Shown here: positions 2,696-54,777 of the stretch, one piece after another
How positions within the stretch are numbered: position 1 is the first letter of the stretch
Layout of the letters: the number at the start of each line of letters is the position of its first letter
IMG/VR virus record: IMGVR_UViG_3300023174_000045
Location: 1-64,000 of that record
Length of the DNA: 64,000 bases
Direction: 5' to 3' (one strand)
Origin: a virus
The notes under the pieces: generated by a model
Databases searched by the model: none
Seen by the model: the letters and a program-made list of their open reading frames with translations, nothing else
What the model was told of the DNA's origin: nothing
Program-made: the position numbers and the translations under genes

Positions 2696-4091
2696 CGTTC
2701 AACGATTATTTTTAGAAATGATGTTGGAAGACGCACAAAGCTACGTGCGTGTGCAGAACATCTACAACCCGCAGAACTTTGACAAGAGTTTGCGATCAGC
2801 GGCTGAGTTCATCAAAGAACATTCTGACAAGCACAAGACCTTGCCTGACCGTATGCAAATTAGTGCCACCACAGGCATAAAATTACAAGCGGTGCCCGAC
2901 TTGAACGAAGGTCACTTTGACTGGTTCATGGGCGAGTTTGAACAGTTTACCAAACGACAAGAACTTGAACGTGCTATTTTAAAAGCCGCAGACATGCTGG
3001 AAAAGGGTGACTTTGAACCCGTAGAAAAGTTAATTAAAGATGCTGTGCAAATATCATTGACCAAAGACATGGGCACAGATTACTTTGCTGATCCCAAGGC
3101 ACGTATTGAAAAATACTTTAACTCAGGTGGACAAGTATCAACAGGCTGGCCACAGCTGGACAGATTGTTGTATGGTGGATTCAGTCGCGGTGAACTCAAC
3201 ATCTTTGCTGGTGGATCAGGGTCGGGTAAGTCACTGGTTATGATGAACATTGCCTTGAACTGGCTGCAACAGGGCTTGAGCGGTGTATACATTACGCTGG
3301 AGTTGAGTGAAGAACTCACAAGTTTGCGTACAGATGCCATGCTCACAAACATGAGCACAAAAGATATTCGCAAGGACATTGACACCACAGAACTCAAAGT
3401 CAAATTGGTGGCCAAGAAGAGCGGCAACTATCAAGTCAAAGGCTTGCCAGCACAAAGCAACATCAACGACATACGTGCATACTTGAAAGAGTATCAAATA
3501 CAAACAGGCAAGCGTGTGGATTTTGTGATGATTGATTATTTGGACTTGTTGATGCCGGTCAGTGCAAAAGTTTCACCCAATGATTTGTTTGTCAAAGACA
3601 AGTATGTGAGTGAAGAACTTCGCAACTTGGCCAAAGAACTGGGATTCTTGATGGTCACAGCATCACAGTTGAACCGAAGTGCTGTGGAAGAAATTGAATT
3701 TGATCACAGTCATATTTCAGGTGGCATATCTAAAATCAACACAGCAGATAACGTGTTTGGTATCTTTACAAGCCGTGCCATGAAAGAGCGTGGCAAGTAT
3801 CAGATACAGTGTATGAAGTCTCGAAGCTCGACCGGCGTTGGTCAAAAAATTGATTTGGAGTACAACATTGAAACCATGCGCATTACTGACGAAGGCGGAG
3901 AAGATGGAGACACTTATTCAAAGAAACCATCTGCATCAATCATGGACTCAATCAAAGCCCGCAGCCAAGTTAGCCCGGCTAGTGATGACGCAAACAGCCC
4001 TCCATGGGACAGTGCGGAACCTGCCAAAGTCACAGCAGATGTTCAAAGCGCCAAACTAAAACAACTGCTGGGCAAGATCAAAACTGGATAA
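2673..4091 (+). CDS. Replicative DNA helicase, DnaB/T4 gp41 type
   Basis: Hexameric 5'-3' helicase that unwinds the fork and partners the primase. The RecA-like core has Walker A GGSGSGKS near residues 180-187, Walker B-like DFVMIDYLDLL, and the ASQLNR segment typical of DnaB-family motif 3. The C-terminal tail, after about residue 410, is polar and probably disordered. I chose the TTG start at 2673 because GGAAG lies 8-12 bases upstream; the first ATG is later in the frame. The stop overlaps the next ATG (TAATG). Confidence 0.92.
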   Translation: MLKEYGLDVQRLFLEMMLEDAQSYVRVQNIYNPQNFDKSLRSAAEFIKEHSDKHKTLPDRMQISATTGIKLQAVPDLNEGHFDWFMGEFEQFTKRQELERAILKAADMLEKGDFEPVEKLIKDAVQISLTKDMGTDYFADPKARIEKYFNSGGQVSTGWPQLDRLLYGGFSRGELNIFAGGSGSGKSLVMMNIALNWLQQGLSGVYITLELSEELTSLRTDAMLTNMSTKDIRKDIDTTELKVKLVAKKSGNYQVKGLPAQSNINDIRAYLKEYQIQTGKRVDFVMIDYLDLLMPVSAKVSPNDLFVKDKYVSEELRNLAKELGFLMVTASQLNRSAVEEIEFDHSHISGGISKINTADNVFGIFTSRAMKERGKYQIQCMKSRSSTGVGQKIDLEYNIETMRITDEGGEDGDTYSKKPSASIMDSIKARSQVSPASDDANSPPWDSAEPAKVTADVQSAKLKQLLGKIKTG

Positions 4092-34067: not shown

Positions 34068-35276
34068 ATGAAATCACCTGAAACCCTAGACAACTGTAGT
34101 TTCTGCGGCAAACACAAAGATTCAGTGGCCAAACTTATTGTGGGCAATGAAGTCTCAATTTGCAACGAGTGTGTGGACCTGTGTCAGACCTTGCTAGTAG
34201 AAGAACTTCCCGAAAAATCAAAAGAAGTCACAGACGACACCCTGGATCCCAGAGCCATCAAAGATCACCTAGATCAGTATGTGATTGGACAGGATCATGC
34301 CAAAATGGTGCTGAGTGTGGCCATTGCCAATCATTACAAACGCATAGCCAATGCTGATGCCAACATAGAAATTGAAAAAGCCAACATCCTCATGCTTGGC
34401 CCAACAGGCTCGGGCAAAACATTGTTGGCACGTACTGTGGCACGTTATTTGGATGTACCATTTGTCATAGCTGATGCCACCAGTTTGACCGAAGCAGGGT
34501 ATGTGGGCGATGATGTGGAGAGCCTGATCACCAGACTGTACACAGCCGCAGGCAGTGATGTGGCCAAGACACAACGTGGTATTGTGTTTGTGGATGAAAT
34601 TGACAAGATCAGCCGACGCAGTGAGAGTGCCAGTATCACCCGAGATGTGTCGGGAGAAGGTGTGCAACAGGCCTTACTCAAGTTGGTCGAAGGAACCAAG
34701 TGCAGAATCACTCCACAAGGTGGCCGCAAGCATCCTTCAGGTGAGACAGTGGAAATTGACACAGCCAACATACTGTTCATTGCCGGTGGTGCATTTGTGG
34801 GCCTAGACAACATTGTCAAAAGCCGGATAAAAGGCACCAGCATAGGATTCAACGCCAAGGTGGGCAATGACAAGACCGCGCACTTAGATCAAACCACTCC
34901 CGAAGACTTGATCAAGTTTGGTATGATACCTGAGTTTGTGGGACGTTTCCCCAGCTGGGTTGCATTGGAAGAACTCACCAAAGAAGATTTGATACGCATC
35001 TTGCAAGAAGTCAAACACAGTTATGTGAGCCAGTACAAATGGCTGTTTCAACGAGATCAAGTTGAACTCAAGTTCAGCACCGACAGTCTGGAATTGATTG
35101 CAGAACGCACCATTGCCAGTAAAACTGGCGCACGTGGTCTGCATTCAGAATTGGAACGTGTGTTGTTGCCCCATATGTATAACCTAGCTCGTTACCGCAA
35201 TCACGGAATCAAAACGGTTTCTATTGACACCCAACAGGTAAATATTCCCAAGGAGCTCAAAGAAATAAATGAATAA
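34068..35276 (+). CDS. clpX: ATP-dependent protease unfoldase ClpX
   Basis: Hexameric AAA+ unfoldase that feeds proteins to ClpP. It is 402 residues, near full length. The zinc-binding domain has C10-C13 and C32-C35. Walker A is GPTGSGKT (111-118), the pore loop is GYVGDD (144-149) and Walker B is FVDEID. IGF at 259-261 is the loop that docks on ClpP, so it can probably bind a ClpP ring. It could redirect the host protease or work with the phage ClpP proteins at 51974 and 54193. It overlaps the bS21 gene by 8 bases. Confidence 0.97.
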
Positions 35277-35493
35277 GTCGCATGCTAGATCAGTGTTGGT
35301 ACAAGACAACAACATAGAAAAAGCTCTTCGCAAATTCAAGAAAAAAGTTCAGAATTCTGGGGTATTAGAAGATCTCAGGGCACGTGAATTTTACATCAAA
35401 CCCACCACAGCTCGTAAACTCAAACACAGTGCCGCAAAAAATCGTTGGCGCAAAAAACTTGAAAGTCAACAACTCCCTCCCCGCACACACTGA
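35269..35493 (+). CDS. rpsU: Ribosomal protein bS21 homologue
   Basis: A 74-residue homologue of the small-subunit protein that sits near the anti-Shine-Dalgarno region and assists initiation. The match is in VQDNNIEKALRKFKKKV, then SGVLEDLRAREFYIKPT, the bS21 core, followed by a basic tail. Phage bS21 is thought to favour phage mRNAs by replacing host bS21 in ribosomes. It starts inside the end of clpX and its stop shares a base with the next gene. Confidence 0.9.
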   Translation: MNKSHARSVLVQDNNIEKALRKFKKKVQNSGVLEDLRAREFYIKPTTARKLKHSAAKNRWRKKLESQQLPPRTH

Positions 35494-35729
35494 TGTACAT
35501 TGAGTTTGATTTGTCGGGAATTAAAACCAGTGGTGAATTTTTATTGTTACGCAAAGAATTACTGGAGTGGGGCAAACGATACAGCATCGAATATCGTGAA
35601 AAAACTATCAAACGCACACATCGTGTGACTTTTGACCAAGACGAAAATTATTCTTTTTGGGCAATAACTTGGAATCCACACTATAATTTCCAATATCGCA
35701 TTGTGTCTGACCTAAATAACAAAATATAA
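35493..35729 (+). CDS. Hypothetical phage protein, 78 aa
   Basis: A small aromatic-rich protein (ENYSFWAITWNPHYNFQYRI). It is coupled to bS21 by a one-base overlap. No family recognised. Confidence 0.6.
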   Translation: MYIEFDLSGIKTSGEFLLLRKELLEWGKRYSIEYREKTIKRTHRVTFDQDENYSFWAITWNPHYNFQYRIVSDLNNKI

Positions 35730-35745
35730 TTCTGGGTTGTGTTAT

Positions 35746-35753
35746 AATAAATA
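35746..35753 (+). promoter_or_regulatory. Late promoter box AATAAATA, overlapping a TATAAT
   Basis: AATAAATA is 67 bases before the hsp20 ATG and overlaps TATAAT (35743-35748), so either promoter class may serve this gene. Confidence 0.55.
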
Positions 35754-35758
35754 CTGAT

Positions 35759-35816
35759 GTAGTGCCCATGGTGGGGCTACAATTCAAAATGTCATCTTGC
35801 TTAATAAAGGAGAAAA
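35759..35816 (+). promoter_or_regulatory. ROSE-like RNA-thermometer leader of hsp20
   Basis: TTGCT (35797-35801) can pair with AGGA (35808-35811) across a 6-base TAATAA loop, leaving the middle G bulged; TC before and GA after extend the stem by two pairs. This is the U(U/C)GCU / Shine-Dalgarno arrangement of ROSE thermometers, which control small heat-shock genes in proteobacteria. A separate hairpin (GTAG...CTAC, 35759-35780) lies upstream. The RBS would be hidden at low and open at high temperature. Inferred; no folding energy was computed. Confidence 0.6.
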
Positions 35817-35819
35817 CAA

Positions 35820-36278
35820 ATGACAAAAACTCTAACCCTTCGCAGTTTCGATCTTCCCGCACTTCACAAATTTGGTATTGGTTTTGATAACATGTTTGAT
35901 GAGATCATGCGTGTCAACGCTCAACAAAGCAACAGCAACTATCCACCTTATGACATTGTGCAAATCAACGATGATGAGTACATGATCTCAGTGGCTGTGG
36001 CCGGCTTTGGAGCAGATGACCTCACAGTGACCAAGGACAAGAAAACCTTGATCATTGAAGGCAAGCACAGCCGTGAGACGGTGGACAACGAAGACGCCAC
36101 TGCAAAATATTTGCACAAAGGCATAAGCGAACGCAGTTTCCGTAGAGAGTTTACATTAGCCGACTATGTAGAGATCAGCAATGCTCATCTTGAACTGGGC
36201 ATACTCAGCGTACATTTAAAACGCGAAGTACCCGAACAAGACAAGCCAAAGACCATTGCAATTACCTACAAAGAGTAA
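35820..36278 (+). CDS. Small heat-shock protein Hsp20 (IbpA-like)
   Basis: ATP-independent holdase that binds unfolding proteins. It is 152 residues. The alpha-crystallin domain spans about residues 42-140 (PPYDIVQINDDEYMISVAVAGF, then AHLELGILSVHLKREVPE), and the C-terminal IAI (about 146-148) is the IxI motif used for assembly. Hsp20 is common in cyanophages. It follows a leader with a ROSE-like hairpin and lies between clpX/bS21 and clpS. Confidence 0.93.
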   Translation: MTKTLTLRSFDLPALHKFGIGFDNMFDEIMRVNAQQSNSNYPPYDIVQINDDEYMISVAVAGFGADDLTVTKDKKTLIIEGKHSRETVDNEDATAKYLHKGISERSFRREFTLADYVEISNAHLELGILSVHLKREVPEQDKPKTIAITYKE

Positions 36279-36283
36279 TATAA

Positions 36284-36315
36284 TGTAAATACAGTGACAG
36301 CAATCCTGCTGTCAC
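36284..36315 (+). promoter_or_regulatory. Late-like box TGTAAATA followed by a 9-bp hairpin
   Basis: TGTAAATA (36284-36291) is followed by GTGACAGCA-ATCC-TGCTGTCAC, a perfect 9-bp hairpin (36294-36315) with no T-run. It would lie at the 5' end of a clpS transcript and could protect the mRNA or control it; it may also slow transcripts from hsp20. Confidence 0.45.
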
Positions 36316-36343
36316 TAATTGAGTAGCAAAGCAAGGAATAGAA

Positions 36344-36655
36344 ATGGCACACAGCGATACCCGCACACGAATCAAACCATCAGAGGCCGTAATAGAGCCG
36401 CCTATGTTTAAAGTTATCTACTTGAACGATAACCAAACCACAATGGAATTTGTTGTGGACAGCCTGGTCGAATATTTTGACTACACACCGGCCACTGCCG
36501 AACAAATCACCATAGACATTCATCAAGCAGGACAAGCCACAGTGGCAGTGTTGCCTTACGAAGTTGCCGAACAAAAAGGCATCGAAGTCACAATCAGCGC
36601 AAGATCACAAAGTTTTCCACTGCAAATCAAGCTGGAACCTGAAACTGTAAATTAA
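36344..36655 (+). CDS. clpS: ClpS-type adaptor (N-end rule)
   Basis: A 103-residue protein. The substrate-binding residues of ClpS are retained: N28-D29 (YLNDNQTTMEF), and H60 (DIHQAG). ClpS delivers proteins with N-end-rule residues to ClpAP. No clpA is in the window, so it may act with host ClpA and steer degradation. It overlaps the minus-strand gene at its 3' end by 4 bases. Confidence 0.9.
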   Translation: MAHSDTRTRIKPSEAVIEPPMFKVIYLNDNQTTMEFVVDSLVEYFDYTPATAEQITIDIHQAGQATVAVLPYEVAEQKGIEVTISARSQSFPLQIKLEPETVN

Positions 36656-40839: not shown

Positions 40840-41976
40840 TTAGAAGCGATGTTGGATACCAACTGCCACAGCATTCTGCTTGTATTTGCTGTCGCTGAAA
40901 GTTGATGTGTCCTGGCTGGGAACCCAACGATCATACACAGTAAACGGAGCAGTAGCACCTGATGCACGAGTTGCAACCACATAGTCGGCAAACACTTGTG
41001 TGCGCTTGCTGAAATCATAAGTCACGCCAACAGCAGTCATTTTGACATTGTTAATGCCAGCAGTGACTTTGTCTTTGACCATGTAGTAACCGCCATTTAC
41101 GCCAAGATTGGCATTGACTTTGTACTTGGCGCCAACAAATGTTGTTTCAGCATCAGTCTTGCCATCGGCCTTGGTTGAGCTGGCATAGTAGTTGGTTTGT
41201 GCTGTGGGATTGTCAGTCTTAGCATAGCCTGCATTTACAGTTAATGCAGGCGTAACATCATATTTCACAGCATACAAATCAATCTTTTCACTGATAACTG
41301 AACTGCTCAAACGCACTTCTTCGTGTGTGTATGCCAAGTCCAACGGGCCTGCGGTGTAACGAACACCTACGTTGGTACCAGATTTATAAGCAGTGTCATC
41401 GGGCTGGTTGCCAAATGCTTTGGCGTAGTCAAACTTGAAACCGCTGTAGTCTTTGCTGGACCAGCGAACCATGTTGTCAAAGCGGCTCACACCTGAACCT
41501 GAGTAGAAACCAGCATAACGAGCAATGGGTTTCATACCACCAAAGTTCCAGTTGCCACGGCTATCAAATTCATCTAGCACGTTGTACAAAAAGTTTTTGC
41601 CACGACCCAATTTGACTTCACCAAAGCTGCCGCTGAGGCCCACATTGGCTTCGCGGTCAAACAACACAGTACCATTGGTGCCTGTGCCTGCTGAGTCTTT
41701 GCCAGCAGCGCCAGTGCGCAAACTCATGTTGCCTTCCAATTGGAAATTGGCTTTCAAACCATCACCAAGGTCTTCTGAACCTTTGATACCAAAGCGATTG
41801 CTGTTGTGAGCTTGGTCTGCAACACCAGTGAAATCACTGTTACTGCTGGTAAAGCCACTGCCACTGACAATGCCAGCGCCAACCACACCATACACTTGTG
41901 TGTTGTTTTGTGCTTGAGCAGTGCCAGCAACGCCGACAGCAACCAATGCCGCAATTAAAATATTCTTAAATTTCAT
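40840..41976 (-). CDS. Outer-membrane porin, betaproteobacterial type
   Basis: A trimeric 16-strand-type porin (378 residues) with a 23-residue signal peptide ending GTAQA-Q. The first mature strand (NNTQVYGVVGAG), the FGIKGSEDLGDGLKANFQLE and the FDREANVGLSGSFGEVKLGR segments match Gram-negative porins of Burkholderiales, and it ends in a terminal Phe (GIQHRF), the outer-membrane assembly signal. AAGGAGA precedes the start. It lies downstream of pstS and has its own promoter. Finding a full-length host porin in a phage is unusual. Confidence 0.93.
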   Translation of the reverse strand: MKFKNILIAALVAVGVAGTAQAQNNTQVYGVVGAGIVSGSGFTSSNSDFTGVADQAHNSNRFGIKGSEDLGDGLKANFQLEGNMSLRTGAAGKDSAGTGTNGTVLFDREANVGLSGSFGEVKLGRGKNFLYNVLDEFDSRGNWNFGGMKPIARYAGFYSGSGVSRFDNMVRWSSKDYSGFKFDYAKAFGNQPDDTAYKSGTNVGVRYTAGPLDLAYTHEEVRLSSSVISEKIDLYAVKYDVTPALTVNAGYAKTDNPTAQTNYYASSTKADGKTDAETTFVGAKYKVNANLGVNGGYYMVKDKVTAGINNVKMTAVGVTYDFSKRTQVFADYVVATRASGATAPFTVYDRWVPSQDTSTFSDSKYKQNAVAVGIQHRF

Positions 41977-42006
41977 AGTTTCTCCTTTGTAAATTACTAT
42001 GGGTTT

Positions 42007-42035
42007 ATTATATAGTATTTCTACTAACAATACAA
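42007..42035 (-). promoter_or_regulatory. Sigma70 promoter of the porin gene
   Basis: Minus strand TTGTAT, 17 bases, TATAAT, placed between the pstS stop and the porin ATG. No Pho box is visible here. Confidence 0.7.
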
Positions 42036-43052
42036 CTATTTCTTGACCTGTGTCCAAACTTCGCTACGAATGCGATCCGTAACAGCTTTTGGCAATGGCA
42101 CATAGTCAAGATCTGCAGCCATTTTACCACCGTTTACAAAACTCCAGTCAAAGAATTTGATGACTTCTTGACCAGTCTTTGCATTTTTGGGTTCACGATA
42201 CATCAGCACAAACACAGCACCTGTGATGGGCCATGATTGCGCACCCTTTTGATTTACCAAACTGATGCCCATGCCCGGAACACTGAACCAATCAGCACCG
42301 GCAGCCGCTGCCGCAAATGTCAGATCATCGGGCTCGACCCATTTGCCGTCGCGATTTTGCAAACGTGCATAGCTGATTTTGTTTTTCTTGGCATAAGCAT
42401 ATTCTACGTAGCCAATGGAATTTTTGATACGTGTTACATTGGCAGCAACACCTTCATTGCCTTTGCCGCCCACACTGCTGGTGGCAGGCCATTTCACAGC
42501 GGCGCCTTTGCCAACTTCGTCTTTCCACAGTGGGCTGACTTCAGTCAAGTAGTCTGTGAAAATAAATGTTGTACCTGACCCATCCGCACGATGCACCACT
42601 GTGATGGGTTCGGCAGGCAATTTAACCTTGGGGTTCAAGTCTTGGATACGCTTGTCGTTCCACGTCACAATGTGTCCCACAAAGATCTTGGCCAGTACTT
42701 CACCGGTCAACTGCAACTCGCCAGGTTTGATGCCTTCTACATTGATGATTGGCACCACGCCGCCCAGCACAGCAGGAAACTGGATCAAGCCAGCGGCTGT
42801 TAATTCATCACCTTTCATGGGTGCATCACTGGCACCAAAATCCACTGTACCTGCTTTGATTTGCTTGATGCCGCCGGAACTACCAATGCTTTGATAGTTT
42901 AGTTGCACATCAGATTTTTCTCTGTAAGCTTCTGACCATTTAGAGAACATGGGAAAGGCAAATGTTGAACCTGCCCCTGTGATTGTTTCTGCATTTGCTT
43001 GTGGACTCATCAAGTACAATGATGCCGCAATTATTACCAAGATTTTTTTCAT
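42036..43052 (-). CDS. pstS: Phosphate-binding protein PstS
   Basis: Periplasmic component of the high-affinity phosphate ABC transporter. It is 338 residues with a signal peptide (MKKILVIIAASLYLMSPQANA). The phosphate-binding loops are GAGSTFAFP, SIGSSGGI, DFGASDAP and ADGSGTT. Phages of cyanobacteria and SAR11 carry pstS too, where it boosts phosphate uptake of the infected cell. It would need the host PstCAB. AAAGGA precedes the ATG, and a PhoB-type promoter is upstream. Confidence 0.96.
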   Translation of the reverse strand: MKKILVIIAASLYLMSPQANAETITGAGSTFAFPMFSKWSEAYREKSDVQLNYQSIGSSGGIKQIKAGTVDFGASDAPMKGDELTAAGLIQFPAVLGGVVPIINVEGIKPGELQLTGEVLAKIFVGHIVTWNDKRIQDLNPKVKLPAEPITVVHRADGSGTTFIFTDYLTEVSPLWKDEVGKGAAVKWPATSSVGGKGNEGVAANVTRIKNSIGYVEYAYAKKNKISYARLQNRDGKWVEPDDLTFAAAAAGADWFSVPGMGISLVNQKGAQSWPITGAVFVLMYREPKNAKTGQEVIKFFDWSFVNGGKMAADLDYVPLPKAVTDRIRSEVWTQVKK

Positions 43053-43088
43053 GTGTTTGTTCCTTTGTGAATGTGCGATGCACAAATT

Positions 43089-43122
43089 ATTTAAACACAA
43101 AGATGTTACAGTAGTATTACAG
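43089..43122 (-). promoter_or_regulatory. PhoB-type promoter of pstS (Pho box plus -10)
   Basis: On the minus strand CTGTAAT-ACTA-CTGTAAC (43105-43122) is a clear Pho box; 10 bases later is TTAAAT (43089-43094). The box overlaps the last codons of the small gene upstream (43117-43269). Confidence 0.82.
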
Positions 43123-48995: not shown

Positions 48996-49059
48996 AGATC
49001 AACAAGATGCCGCATGGGGCGGGTCTTGTATCTAGTAACTCGCTGTCAAGGAGAACACG

Positions 49060-49365
49060 GTGATCAAGCAAGCAAGTCTAACCATAGACACAATACAAAA
49101 TGGTAAAAAACAGTTTATCGACAAGTACATTGACAATCCAATCTTGAACAAAGCCTGGCACAATTTTGTGGCCAAACAAACGGCTTTTTGTCAAGCCGCA
49201 CTGGAAACTCAATTGGAAATGGTTTCTGAAGTCAGCAAAACGCTGATGGACACCAAAGTACGCAAATTGGTAAACCCATTCAACATTGACTGGTTCGATG
49301 CTGGCTGGGAAGCACTGGTTCAACAAAGCATAGCCGAAACAAACAAGGAGAAAAAACATGTTTAA
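49060..49365 (+). CDS. Helical phasin-like protein, 101 aa
   Basis: GTG start with AAGGAGA upstream. The protein is amphipathic and helical (FCQAALETQLEMVSEVSKTLMD) with a Trp-containing C-terminus. It overlaps the next gene, which has a similar character. Phasins coat polyhydroxyalkanoate granules and are of this size, and some phages encode them; resemblance here is by composition only. Confidence 0.45.
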   Translation: MIKQASLTIDTIQNGKKQFIDKYIDNPILNKAWHNFVAKQTAFCQAALETQLEMVSEVSKTLMDTKVRKLVNPFNIDWFDAGWEALVQQSIAETNKEKKHV

Positions 49366-49621
49366 TTCTGTAATCGACACTGTGCAAACTGCACAAAAAA
49401 CTTTCATCAATACCGTTGTCACCAACGAAGAAATCGCCAAGCCCATGATCCGCATGATCGATGCACAAAGCGAAACTGCCAAATTGACTGCCAAGGCCAT
49501 TTTGGACATCACCACCACCATGGCATCGGCCACCACTGAAAAAGTGCAGGAAGCAATGAAGTTCGACTTCACCAAATTTGCTGACACATTCAAGCCAGCA
49601 ACTGCCACTGCCAAAAAGTAA
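49358..49621 (+). CDS. Helical phasin-like protein, 87 aa
   Basis: An all-helical protein (MFNSVIDTVQTAQKTFINTVV, then AQSETAKLTAKAILDITTTMA) ending in KPATATAKK, a tail common in PhaP-type phasins. Preceded by AAGGAGA. Together with the upstream gene it forms one transcript ended by a strong terminator. Identification is tentative. Confidence 0.5.
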   Translation: MFNSVIDTVQTAQKTFINTVVTNEEIAKPMIRMIDAQSETAKLTAKAILDITTTMASATTEKVQEAMKFDFTKFADTFKPATATAKK

Positions 49622-51973: not shown

Positions 51974-52543
51974 ATGAACACAGAAAACGAAACAATCCAA
52001 ACTCACAGCCAGGCTCTGCAAGAAAATGGCATGTATGTTTTCATGGGCGAAGTCAACAACGAAAACATCGCACCCATTGTGGAATGGATCTTGCACGAAA
52101 ACTTTGTGGTCAAAAAGAAACGCAAAGAATTGCTGTTGATGATTTGCTCGGAAGGTGGTGACATGGGTGCTGCCTTTGCCCTGATAGATGTCATGCGTAG
52201 CAGTCTCATACCTGTCAAAACAGTGGGGCTAGGCATGATAGCCAGCGCAGGCCTGTTGATCTTTATTTCTGGCACTCCAGGACGCAGGGTGCTCACACCC
52301 AATACGTCAATACTGAGCCATCAATTCTCCTGGAGCAATGAAGGCAAGGCACATGAACTGTTTGCCACCATGCGAGAGTTTGAACTCACCCAACAACGCA
52401 TGTTGGCGCACTATCAACTGTGTACAGGATTATCGGAAGATGAAATTAGGAAGAACTTGTTGCCACCACATGACATTTGGCTATCGGCAATAGAAGCCAT
52501 GGGTCTCAAAGTGTGTGACCACATTTCAGAACTTGTACGTTAA
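51974..52543 (+). CDS. ClpP-like serine protease (second ClpP-fold protein)
   Basis: A 189-residue member of the ClpP/crotonase fold. The catalytic Ser is in GMIASAG (S91), the His in LSHQFS (H116), and the Asp in HDIWLSAIEA (D167), which lines up with the [10 protein letters not shown] of the true ClpP at 54193. ICSEGGDMGAAFALIDVM is the oxyanion GG region. It differs widely from ClpP in the handle region. It could form a mixed ring with ClpP or be an independent peptidase. It converges with the minus-strand gene at its end. Confidence 0.82.
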   Translation: MNTENETIQTHSQALQENGMYVFMGEVNNENIAPIVEWILHENFVVKKKRKELLLMICSEGGDMGAAFALIDVMRSSLIPVKTVGLGMIASAGLLIFISGTPGRRVLTPNTSILSHQFSWSNEGKAHELFATMREFELTQQRMLAHYQLCTGLSEDEIRKNLLPPHDIWLSAIEAMGLKVCDHISELVR

Positions 52544-54141: not shown

Positions 54142-54169
54142 TGGTGTTTTCCAAGAATTATGCTATACT
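54141..54169 (+). promoter_or_regulatory. Sigma70-type promoter of clpP
   Basis: TTGGTG, 17 bases, TATACT, with the clpP GTG 24 bases further and AAGGAGA between. Confidence 0.6.
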
Positions 54170-54192
54170 TATGCAATCAACAAGGAGACCCT

Positions 54193-54777
54193 GTGCCAAA
54201 TTTAGTACCCATAGTTTTAGAACACACCATGAAAGGTGAACGCAGTTACGATATCTACAGCAGATTATTACGAGATAGAGTGATCATCATGGACGGCGAA
54301 GTCAACTCAGCTACCAGCAGTTTGATCACTGCACAGTTGTTGTTTTTAGAGGCAGACAATCCGGACAAAGCCATCAGCTTGTACATCAACAGTCCGGGCG
54401 GCAGTGTCACAGCAGGCATGGCCATTTACGACACCATGAACTTTATCAAACCAGACATTCACACCATTGTGATGGGACAGGCTGCTTCGATGGGTAGCCT
54501 ATTGGCCACAGCAGGTACCAAGGGGCATCGTTACATACTGCCCAATGCCCGACACATGATTCACCAACCCTTGGGCGGAGCATCAGGACAGGCCACTGAT
54601 GTGGAAATTCAAGCCCGAGAACTGTTGCGTTGGAAAAAGGTATTGACTGATATCTATGTACAGCATACCGGCCGGGACTTTGAAACCCTGCGCACTGACA
54701 TGGAACGTGACAACTTCATGACTGCACAGGAAGCAGTTGACTATGGCCTAGCCGACAAGGTCATAGACAAACGTTAA
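54193..54777 (+). CDS. clpP: ATP-dependent Clp protease proteolytic subunit ClpP
   Basis: The 14-mer serine protease core used by ClpX and ClpA. It is 194 residues from the GTG at 54193, which has AAGGAGA upstream. The triad is S99 (GQAASMGS), H124 (RHMIHQP) and D173 (ERDNFMTA). The opening [22 protein letters not shown] is the ClpP N-terminal loop that contacts the ATPase. There is no long propeptide. With clpX and a second ClpP-like gene it suggests a phage Clp protease. Confidence 0.96.

Follow-up and report, generated by a model that had tools for sequence, protein, structure and literature searches.

A divergent ROSE-like leader before hsp20 and other chaperone-type genes of phages

Is the translation of a viral small heat-shock gene governed by an RNA thermometer in its leader? 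The question is raised by the hsp20 gene of the window studied here, which covers the first 64 kb of a virus (phage) record of 225,080 bases. Bacterial thermometers before groES or dnaK are known. In Pseudomonas, a two-hairpin ROSE element represses ibpA at 25 °C and permits its expression at 42 °C; the part that melts is hairpin II, which is sufficient for the response, and hairpin I remains folded (PMC3669281). Variation between UU and UC in the motif is given in the ROSE literature (PMC3669281; PMC11182007). Phage RNA thermometers are on record for lambda cIII, SPbeta blyA and a Caudoviricetes sigma70, which the present leader would resemble in being carried by a phage genome; in the available parts of these sources, none is described as ROSE and none is placed on a chaperone gene, and blyA is a fourU element, unlike the window leader (PMC11182007, PMC10586365). 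A phage ROSE element was not found in the open-access papers searched (subscription papers were not covered). We read the hsp20 leader as a short two-hairpin ROSE-type translational switch, with a probability of roughly 80%.

The gene stands in a cluster of clpX, the S21 gene, hsp20 and clpS (34068-36655), which together with clpP and a clpP-like gene further on makes up a near-complete viral Clp set. Its product is 38% identical to E. coli IbpA. Ninety bases separate hsp20 from the end (35729) of a 78-aa reading frame, and the two-hairpin leader (35758-35825) lies before the gene (Table 1). The place of the promoter-like element is occupied by TATAATAAATA or TATAAATA in nearly all related loci; that TATAATAAATA acts as a promoter is inferred.

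Table 1. Features of the hsp20 locus, of the second copy of the element and of neighbouring genes in the window.
Feature	Position	Strand	Basis or remark
clpX	34068-35276		phage proteostasis gene
ribosomal protein S21 gene	35269-35493		
TATAATAAATA, sigma70 -10-like / T4-late-like promoter element, directly 5' of leader	35743-35753	+	sequence
hairpin I, UGUAGU-(G bulge)-CCCA-UGG-UGGG-GCUACA	35758-35781	+	fold and compensatory changes
UGUCAU, 5' arm of hairpin II lower stem, pairs with AUGACA (hsp20 start)	35790-35795	+	fold
UUGCU, ROSE motif (anti-Shine-Dalgarno), G35799 bulged	35797-35801	+	sequence
TAATAA, six bases between TTGCT and AGGAG	35802-35807		sequence
AGGAG, Shine-Dalgarno, 3' arm of hairpin II upper stem	35808-35812	+	sequence, fold
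hsp20, regulated gene, 152 aa, ATG at 35820	35820-36278	+	Pfam HSP20 E 4.9e-17; PHROG 432 Hsp20 E 7.8e-40
clpS	36344-36655		phage proteostasis gene
second copy, whole element	49002-49068	+	R2 43.1 bits, E 3.0e-7 (whole phage record)
second copy hairpin I, ACAAGAU-G-CCGC..GCGG-GUCUUGU	49002-49029	+	R2, ROSE_3
second copy UCGCU-GUCA-AGGAG, ROSE motif and Shine-Dalgarno	49040-49053	+	sequence, within R2 match
small phasin-like gene, GTG start, after second copy	49060-49365	+	ORF; aligned with phage phasin-like proteins
phasin-like paralogue, downstream	49358-49621		
clpP-type genes	51974-52543 and 54160-54777		

After hairpin I and a spacer, positions 35790-35825 read UGUCAUC-UUGCU-UAAUAA-AGGAG-AAAACAA-AUGACA. 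The earlier note had placed TTGCT six bases before AGGA in the hsp20 leader, which is exact (35797-35812), and had proposed that the two pair around a bulged G. The minimum-energy fold at 37 °C agrees, with UCUU-(G bulge)-CUU on AAGGAGA and UGUCA on UGACA; the pairing is longer than claimed and includes the start codon. Predicted hairpin II covers this codon by GUCAU with AUGAC, and the first five to six bases of hsp20 form the 3' arm of its lower stem.

The folding energy of the leader is ordinary in comparison with shuffled sequences (z -1.55 for the whole leader, -1.01 for hairpin II), and ViennaRNA did not predict the Rfam ROSE structure for the E. coli ibpA control. For both reasons, single-sequence folding was not used as proof, and the view that the leader is more than chance rests on comparison and conservation instead. 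The non-canonical pairs of ROSE elements escape nearest-neighbour rules. Other identities were considered and rejected: hairpin I has no U tract after it and a promoter-like element before it, which does not fit a terminator of the upstream gene; no UUUU lies opposite the Shine-Dalgarno sequence of the hsp20 leader, as a fourU thermometer would have; and Rfam RF02980 freshwater-2 scores 22.3 bits against a cut-off of 49.9, mostly from the shared UAAAGGAGAAAACAAAUG (ribosome-site sequence).

The covariance search with Rfam ROSE models, named in the earlier note as a check, failed for the window hsp20 leader and succeeded in part for its relatives. This leader gave no Rfam ROSE match at E up to 10, so that the refuting outcome named in the earlier note, a lack of any ROSE score, literally applies to this one leader; sister phage leaders scored 24-38 bits with RF02523 ROSE_3 (best 38.2) over the full model length, below the gathering cut-off of 43 bits. 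Neither RF00435 ROSE nor RF01832 ROSE_2 matched in the window, and ROSE_2 matched none of the phage leaders scanned; the E. coli ibpA control reached 100.4 bits with ROSE_2, above the cut-off. The sole leader above the ROSE_3 cut-off was Pseudomonas-like (L361, 69.2 bits); its record, Pseudomonas phage Y7, is unverified and resembles host ibpA, so it was not counted as phage. At E up to 10, ROSE_3 had matches in 13 of 14 control genomes, and for this reason only its strong matches were used. ROSE_3 gave no match in Burkholderiales, where the controls were likewise silent.

The features of the ROSE class are nevertheless met although the Rfam cut-offs for ROSE_2 and ROSE_3 are not: the 3'-most hairpin pairs U(U/C)GCU imperfectly, and with a bulged G, to the Shine-Dalgarno sequence, a 5' hairpin precedes the sensing one within the range of two to four hairpins (hairpin I covaries), and the element occupies the 5' UTR of a heat-shock gene (hsp20; dnaK and groES in relatives). 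Judged from its sequence, the hsp20 leader is therefore filed as a divergent ROSE-like element, in which thermosensing is inferred. The ROSE-like arrangement proposed in the earlier note is thus supported by anatomy, motif, gene context and comparative evidence, its temperature response being unproven; the proposal was right in kind because the structure covaries, the sister leaders score and one phage-leader model covers all.

Like the short ROSE of Pseudomonas ibpA (PMC3669281; RF02523 ROSE_3), the phage leader has two hairpins, the first of them stable, before a small heat-shock gene, and in the second one U(U/C)GCU faces the Shine-Dalgarno sequence. However, the start codon is unpaired in Pseudomonas and paired in the window phage leader, and the phage element falls below the Rfam cut-off and occurs in front of dnaK, groES and phasin-like genes as well. 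The E. coli ibpA ROSE (RF01832 ROSE_2) agrees in motif, position and gene family, but its fold is more complex and its sequence different. The Synechocystis hsp17 thermometer (PMC4477652) similarly has an internal bulge between the start-codon stem and the ribosome-site stem, whereas it is a single hairpin with UCCU in place of U(U/C)GCU. ROSE-G (PMC12857270) shares the bulged G in the anti-Shine-Dalgarno strand and differs in having CUGCU, a second bulged G and a place upstream of ABC transporter genes.

Viral contigs were scanned twice for hsp20 and once by pattern, which yielded 153 distinct leaders; the direct leader listings are independent of the covariance model. The order of the parts and both hairpins are kept in nearly all of about 150 distinct leaders of related phages, with length varying in the inter-hairpin spacer and in the loop before AGGAG. 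One record (L138) has an hsp20 without the element, which instead precedes its dnaK, 2 kb upstream. In the window and its relatives, T(T/C)GCT-N1-12-AGG was found before 130 of 505 distinct Shine-Dalgarno-bearing start contexts, of which 115 belonged to hsp20 (113 classed by script and two by eye), 7 to dnaK and 8 to others, and these 8 are set against roughly 380 other starts in all. Five of the 8 are an unrelated stem after hsp20, TGGCAGC..GCTGCCA. This stem is conserved between hsp20 and the next gene, mostly clpS (L008 ~2971-3011, L020, L045, L068, L125), and is probably a terminator that mimics the ROSE motif by chance. Further matches of the pattern scan (L148, L159, L164, L167, L195, L201, L214, L216, L217) were judged by eye to be chance.

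Covariation was assessed in alignment A2, which holds the 105 elements in 96 loci found by model R1 (built from 15 leaders), and in A5, which holds 50 bacterial and cultured-phage leaders, none used in building the model. Because A2, A5 and A6 were aligned by fitting to the model structure, they are biased in its favour. In the 105 aligned elements, 99.1% of hairpin I cells are paired and compensatory double changes occur at 9 of 10 pairs; in A5, compensatory changes are again present at 9 of 10. The Shine-Dalgarno helix is 97.3% paired in A2, where the only standard changes are U-G to C-G and C-G to U-G (UUGCU/UCGCU), and 98.7% paired in A5 (UG 30, CG 20). Double-changed cells number 188 in A2 as against 37 in shuffles, and 163 against 54 in A5, and with slid partners the pairing in A2 drops from 96% to 41-50%. 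The sequence of the element, its conserved structure, its covariation, its gene context and its distribution are matters of observation.

The start-codon stem has double changes at three of its four pairs in A2 and is only 65% paired in A5, which makes it mainly a trait of the freshwater phage group; it is weak or absent in dnaK, bacterial and cyanophage leaders. Among 119 distinct hsp20 elements, 115 have a lower-stem helix of at least 5 bp, and this stem tracks the coding sequence, with GUCAU/AUGAC in hsp20, UAGUC(A)/(U)GACUA when codon 2 is ACT, and GUAAAC/GUUUAC in 9 of 25 phasin-like genes. The 5' arms of hsp20 elements form 5.23 bp with hsp20 starts versus 3.76 with phasin-like starts, and phasin-like arms form 4.09 with their own starts versus 2.54 with those of hsp20; no gene-matched preference was seen for dnaK arms in the same comparison. 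The association between the AGUC arm and the ACT codon (Fisher p 0.037, uncorrected for relatedness) is weak alone.

The element is far more widespread than the earlier note said. Model R2, built from phage leaders and run over 49 phage records, gave at least one match in every record, usually two or three, and found the hsp20 element by position in 48 (the exception, L138, has it at dnaK). The window phage holds a second copy, and the best ROSE_3 match in its whole record (49001-49065, 24 bits, E 9.5e-4) is this copy rather than the hsp20 leader. In most of the 49 records, the second element precedes a phasin-like gene of about 90 aa, and in the remaining ones it stands before dnaK or at a groES-linked place. 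The phasin label is weak: Phasin_2 matches 5 of 13 family members, at best with E 0.0017 and under the cut-off, and the family search gave no match for the phasin-like proteins of the window. Phages carrying DnaK and Hsp20 are already known (PMC12619734); a phage dnaK with its own ROSE-like leader (624-638 aa) lies about 2 kb upstream of hsp20 in L078, L079, L093, L137, L138, L172, L197, L204 and L207. A ROSE-like element also precedes a phage groES (L270 1034-1099, minus strand), and in L032 (280-760) it is followed by a 14-codon frame, then by groES and groEL.

For the window phage, transcription would start near the foot of hairpin I. This stem is stable and covaries, and it probably aids the folding of the message and protects the 5' end. 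In the cold, hairpin II would be closed, with U(U/C)GCU held imperfectly on the Shine-Dalgarno sequence around the bulged G and, in the window phage group, with GUCAU additionally closing the start codon. Upon warming, hairpin II would open, the ribosome would bind and the chaperone would be made, hairpin I remaining folded. The transcript start, the melting range, the temperature-dependent translation and any benefit during infection are inferred. The predicted cost of opening the stretch from Shine-Dalgarno to AUG is 11.4 kcal/mol at 10 °C, 9.45 at 20, 6.0 at 37 and 5.1 at 42, which ranks from 0.94 to 0.88 among the window's other starts across temperatures (0.91 at 20 °C); control starts too become easier to open with heat. 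The Shine-Dalgarno sequence alone is predicted to be easy to open (rank 0.16-0.28), which suggests that, in the model, the start-codon stem matters for closure. Since the hairpin resembles bacterial thermometers and recurs before phage chaperone genes, viruses probably sense temperature by this RNA, on which there is no temperature experiment.

The same leader could mainly be a protein-sensing operator, in which Hsp20 represses its own translation until it is titrated by unfolded proteins. Temperature would then act via protein unfolding and not RNA melting, although both may combine. Such control exists in E. coli, where IbpA binds the 5' UTR of its own mRNA and represses translation, which requires Arg93 and, at position 34, an aromatic residue (PMC10474464). 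In alignment with IbpA, both positions are conserved in the window Hsp20, as is Arg97; in 149 of 149 phage Hsp20 proteins (136 by pattern, 13 by eye), the R93 position is an arginine and the Y34 region has YPP, and the conserved bulged G of hairpin I is not required by pairing alone. However, an R93-type arginine is broadly conserved in proteobacterial small heat-shock proteins (PMC10474464), the occurrence of the element before dnaK, groES and phasin-like genes would demand binding in trans, and there are no binding data. We consider the operator unlikely as the main function, and, by analogy with IbpA, Hsp20 self-repression may be a layer added to thermosensing.

It is more doubtful still that the leader has no role in temperature and merely combines a 5' stem against RNase with a constitutive start site of low efficiency. 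The location of hairpin I near the presumed 5' end and the ordinary folding energy of the whole leader would suit this, but it would leave unexplained why U(U/C)GCU is near-invariant, why the lower stem is gene-specific and why the element is restricted to chaperone-type genes. Chance complementarity, or shared ancestry without selection, hardly deserves credit: a 5-base anti-Shine-Dalgarno match alone is common, yet the motif is rare before other starts, and the paired parts stay and covary while the spacers, loops and promoters have diverged. Covariation rules it out for the group taken together.

The two-hairpin ROSE-type switch would also extend beyond hsp20. Because the element precedes phasin-like, dnaK or groES genes too, one switch before the phasin-like gene of the window phage and before dnaK or groES in its relatives would amount to a shared post-transcriptional control of chaperone-type genes in phages. 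More broadly, we are inclined to think, with less assurance than for the hsp20 leader itself, that phages carry a small post-transcriptional heat-shock regulon, in which one ROSE-type switch before hsp20, dnaK, groES and a phasin-like gene, and also before the hsp20 of T4-like cyanophages and of pelagiphages, lets temperature directly gate the supply of viral chaperones while infection proceeds in lakes and oceans. Should the switch be functional, viral chaperone production would respond directly to the temperature of the water, a prediction open to immediate test in cultured phages, and there would be a regulatory explanation for a gene that many phages hold. How a thermometer can be moved from one gene to another is also illustrated by the start-codon stem, which is matched to its gene, and by the occurrence of the element at dnaK, groES and phasin-like genes.

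Carriers of the element include cultured marine phages of several genera and uncultured freshwater phages, some of them over 300 kb. With the phage-leader model, the hsp20 leader of Methylophilales phage Melnitz scores 56.7 bits, followed by the cyanophages Synechococcus S-SM2 (45.3), Syn1 (42.7) and ACG-2014f (41.2), lake phage DSL-LC03 (36.6), Pelagibacter Mosig (36.1), Sinorhizobium Phosso (29.8), Prochlorococcus P-SSM2 (28.7) and others down to 22; the hsp20 of S-TIM5 (L362) gave no match with this model. In most of the cultured-phage leaders matched, the ROSE motif can be recognised by eye. Leaders of T4-like cyanophages and other phages (L357, L358, L363, L367-L378) share hairpin I, whose loop is often UUCG, and show U(C/U)GC on the 5' side of the Shine-Dalgarno sequence.

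The same model finds the two-hairpin element in hsp20 leaders of SAR11 and other bacterial contigs (L336 1411-1479, L364-L366, L309-L344), including that of the SAR11 isolate HIMB114 (47.8 bits). It has exactly one match in 17 of 40 Pelagibacterales genomes and a match in 1 of 120 Burkholderiales genomes. Any Rfam ROSE match was seen at only 3 of 16 SAR11 and other bacterial hsp20 loci scanned, below the cut-off. As bacterial and cultured-phage hsp20 leaders both carry it, the element probably came with bacterial small heat-shock protein genes or was shared with them. The window phage also encodes a Porin_4 outer-membrane porin (40840-42057, minus strand) and a PstS-like phosphate-binding protein (42036-43100, minus strand; identified by reading only), which suggests a betaproteobacterial host.
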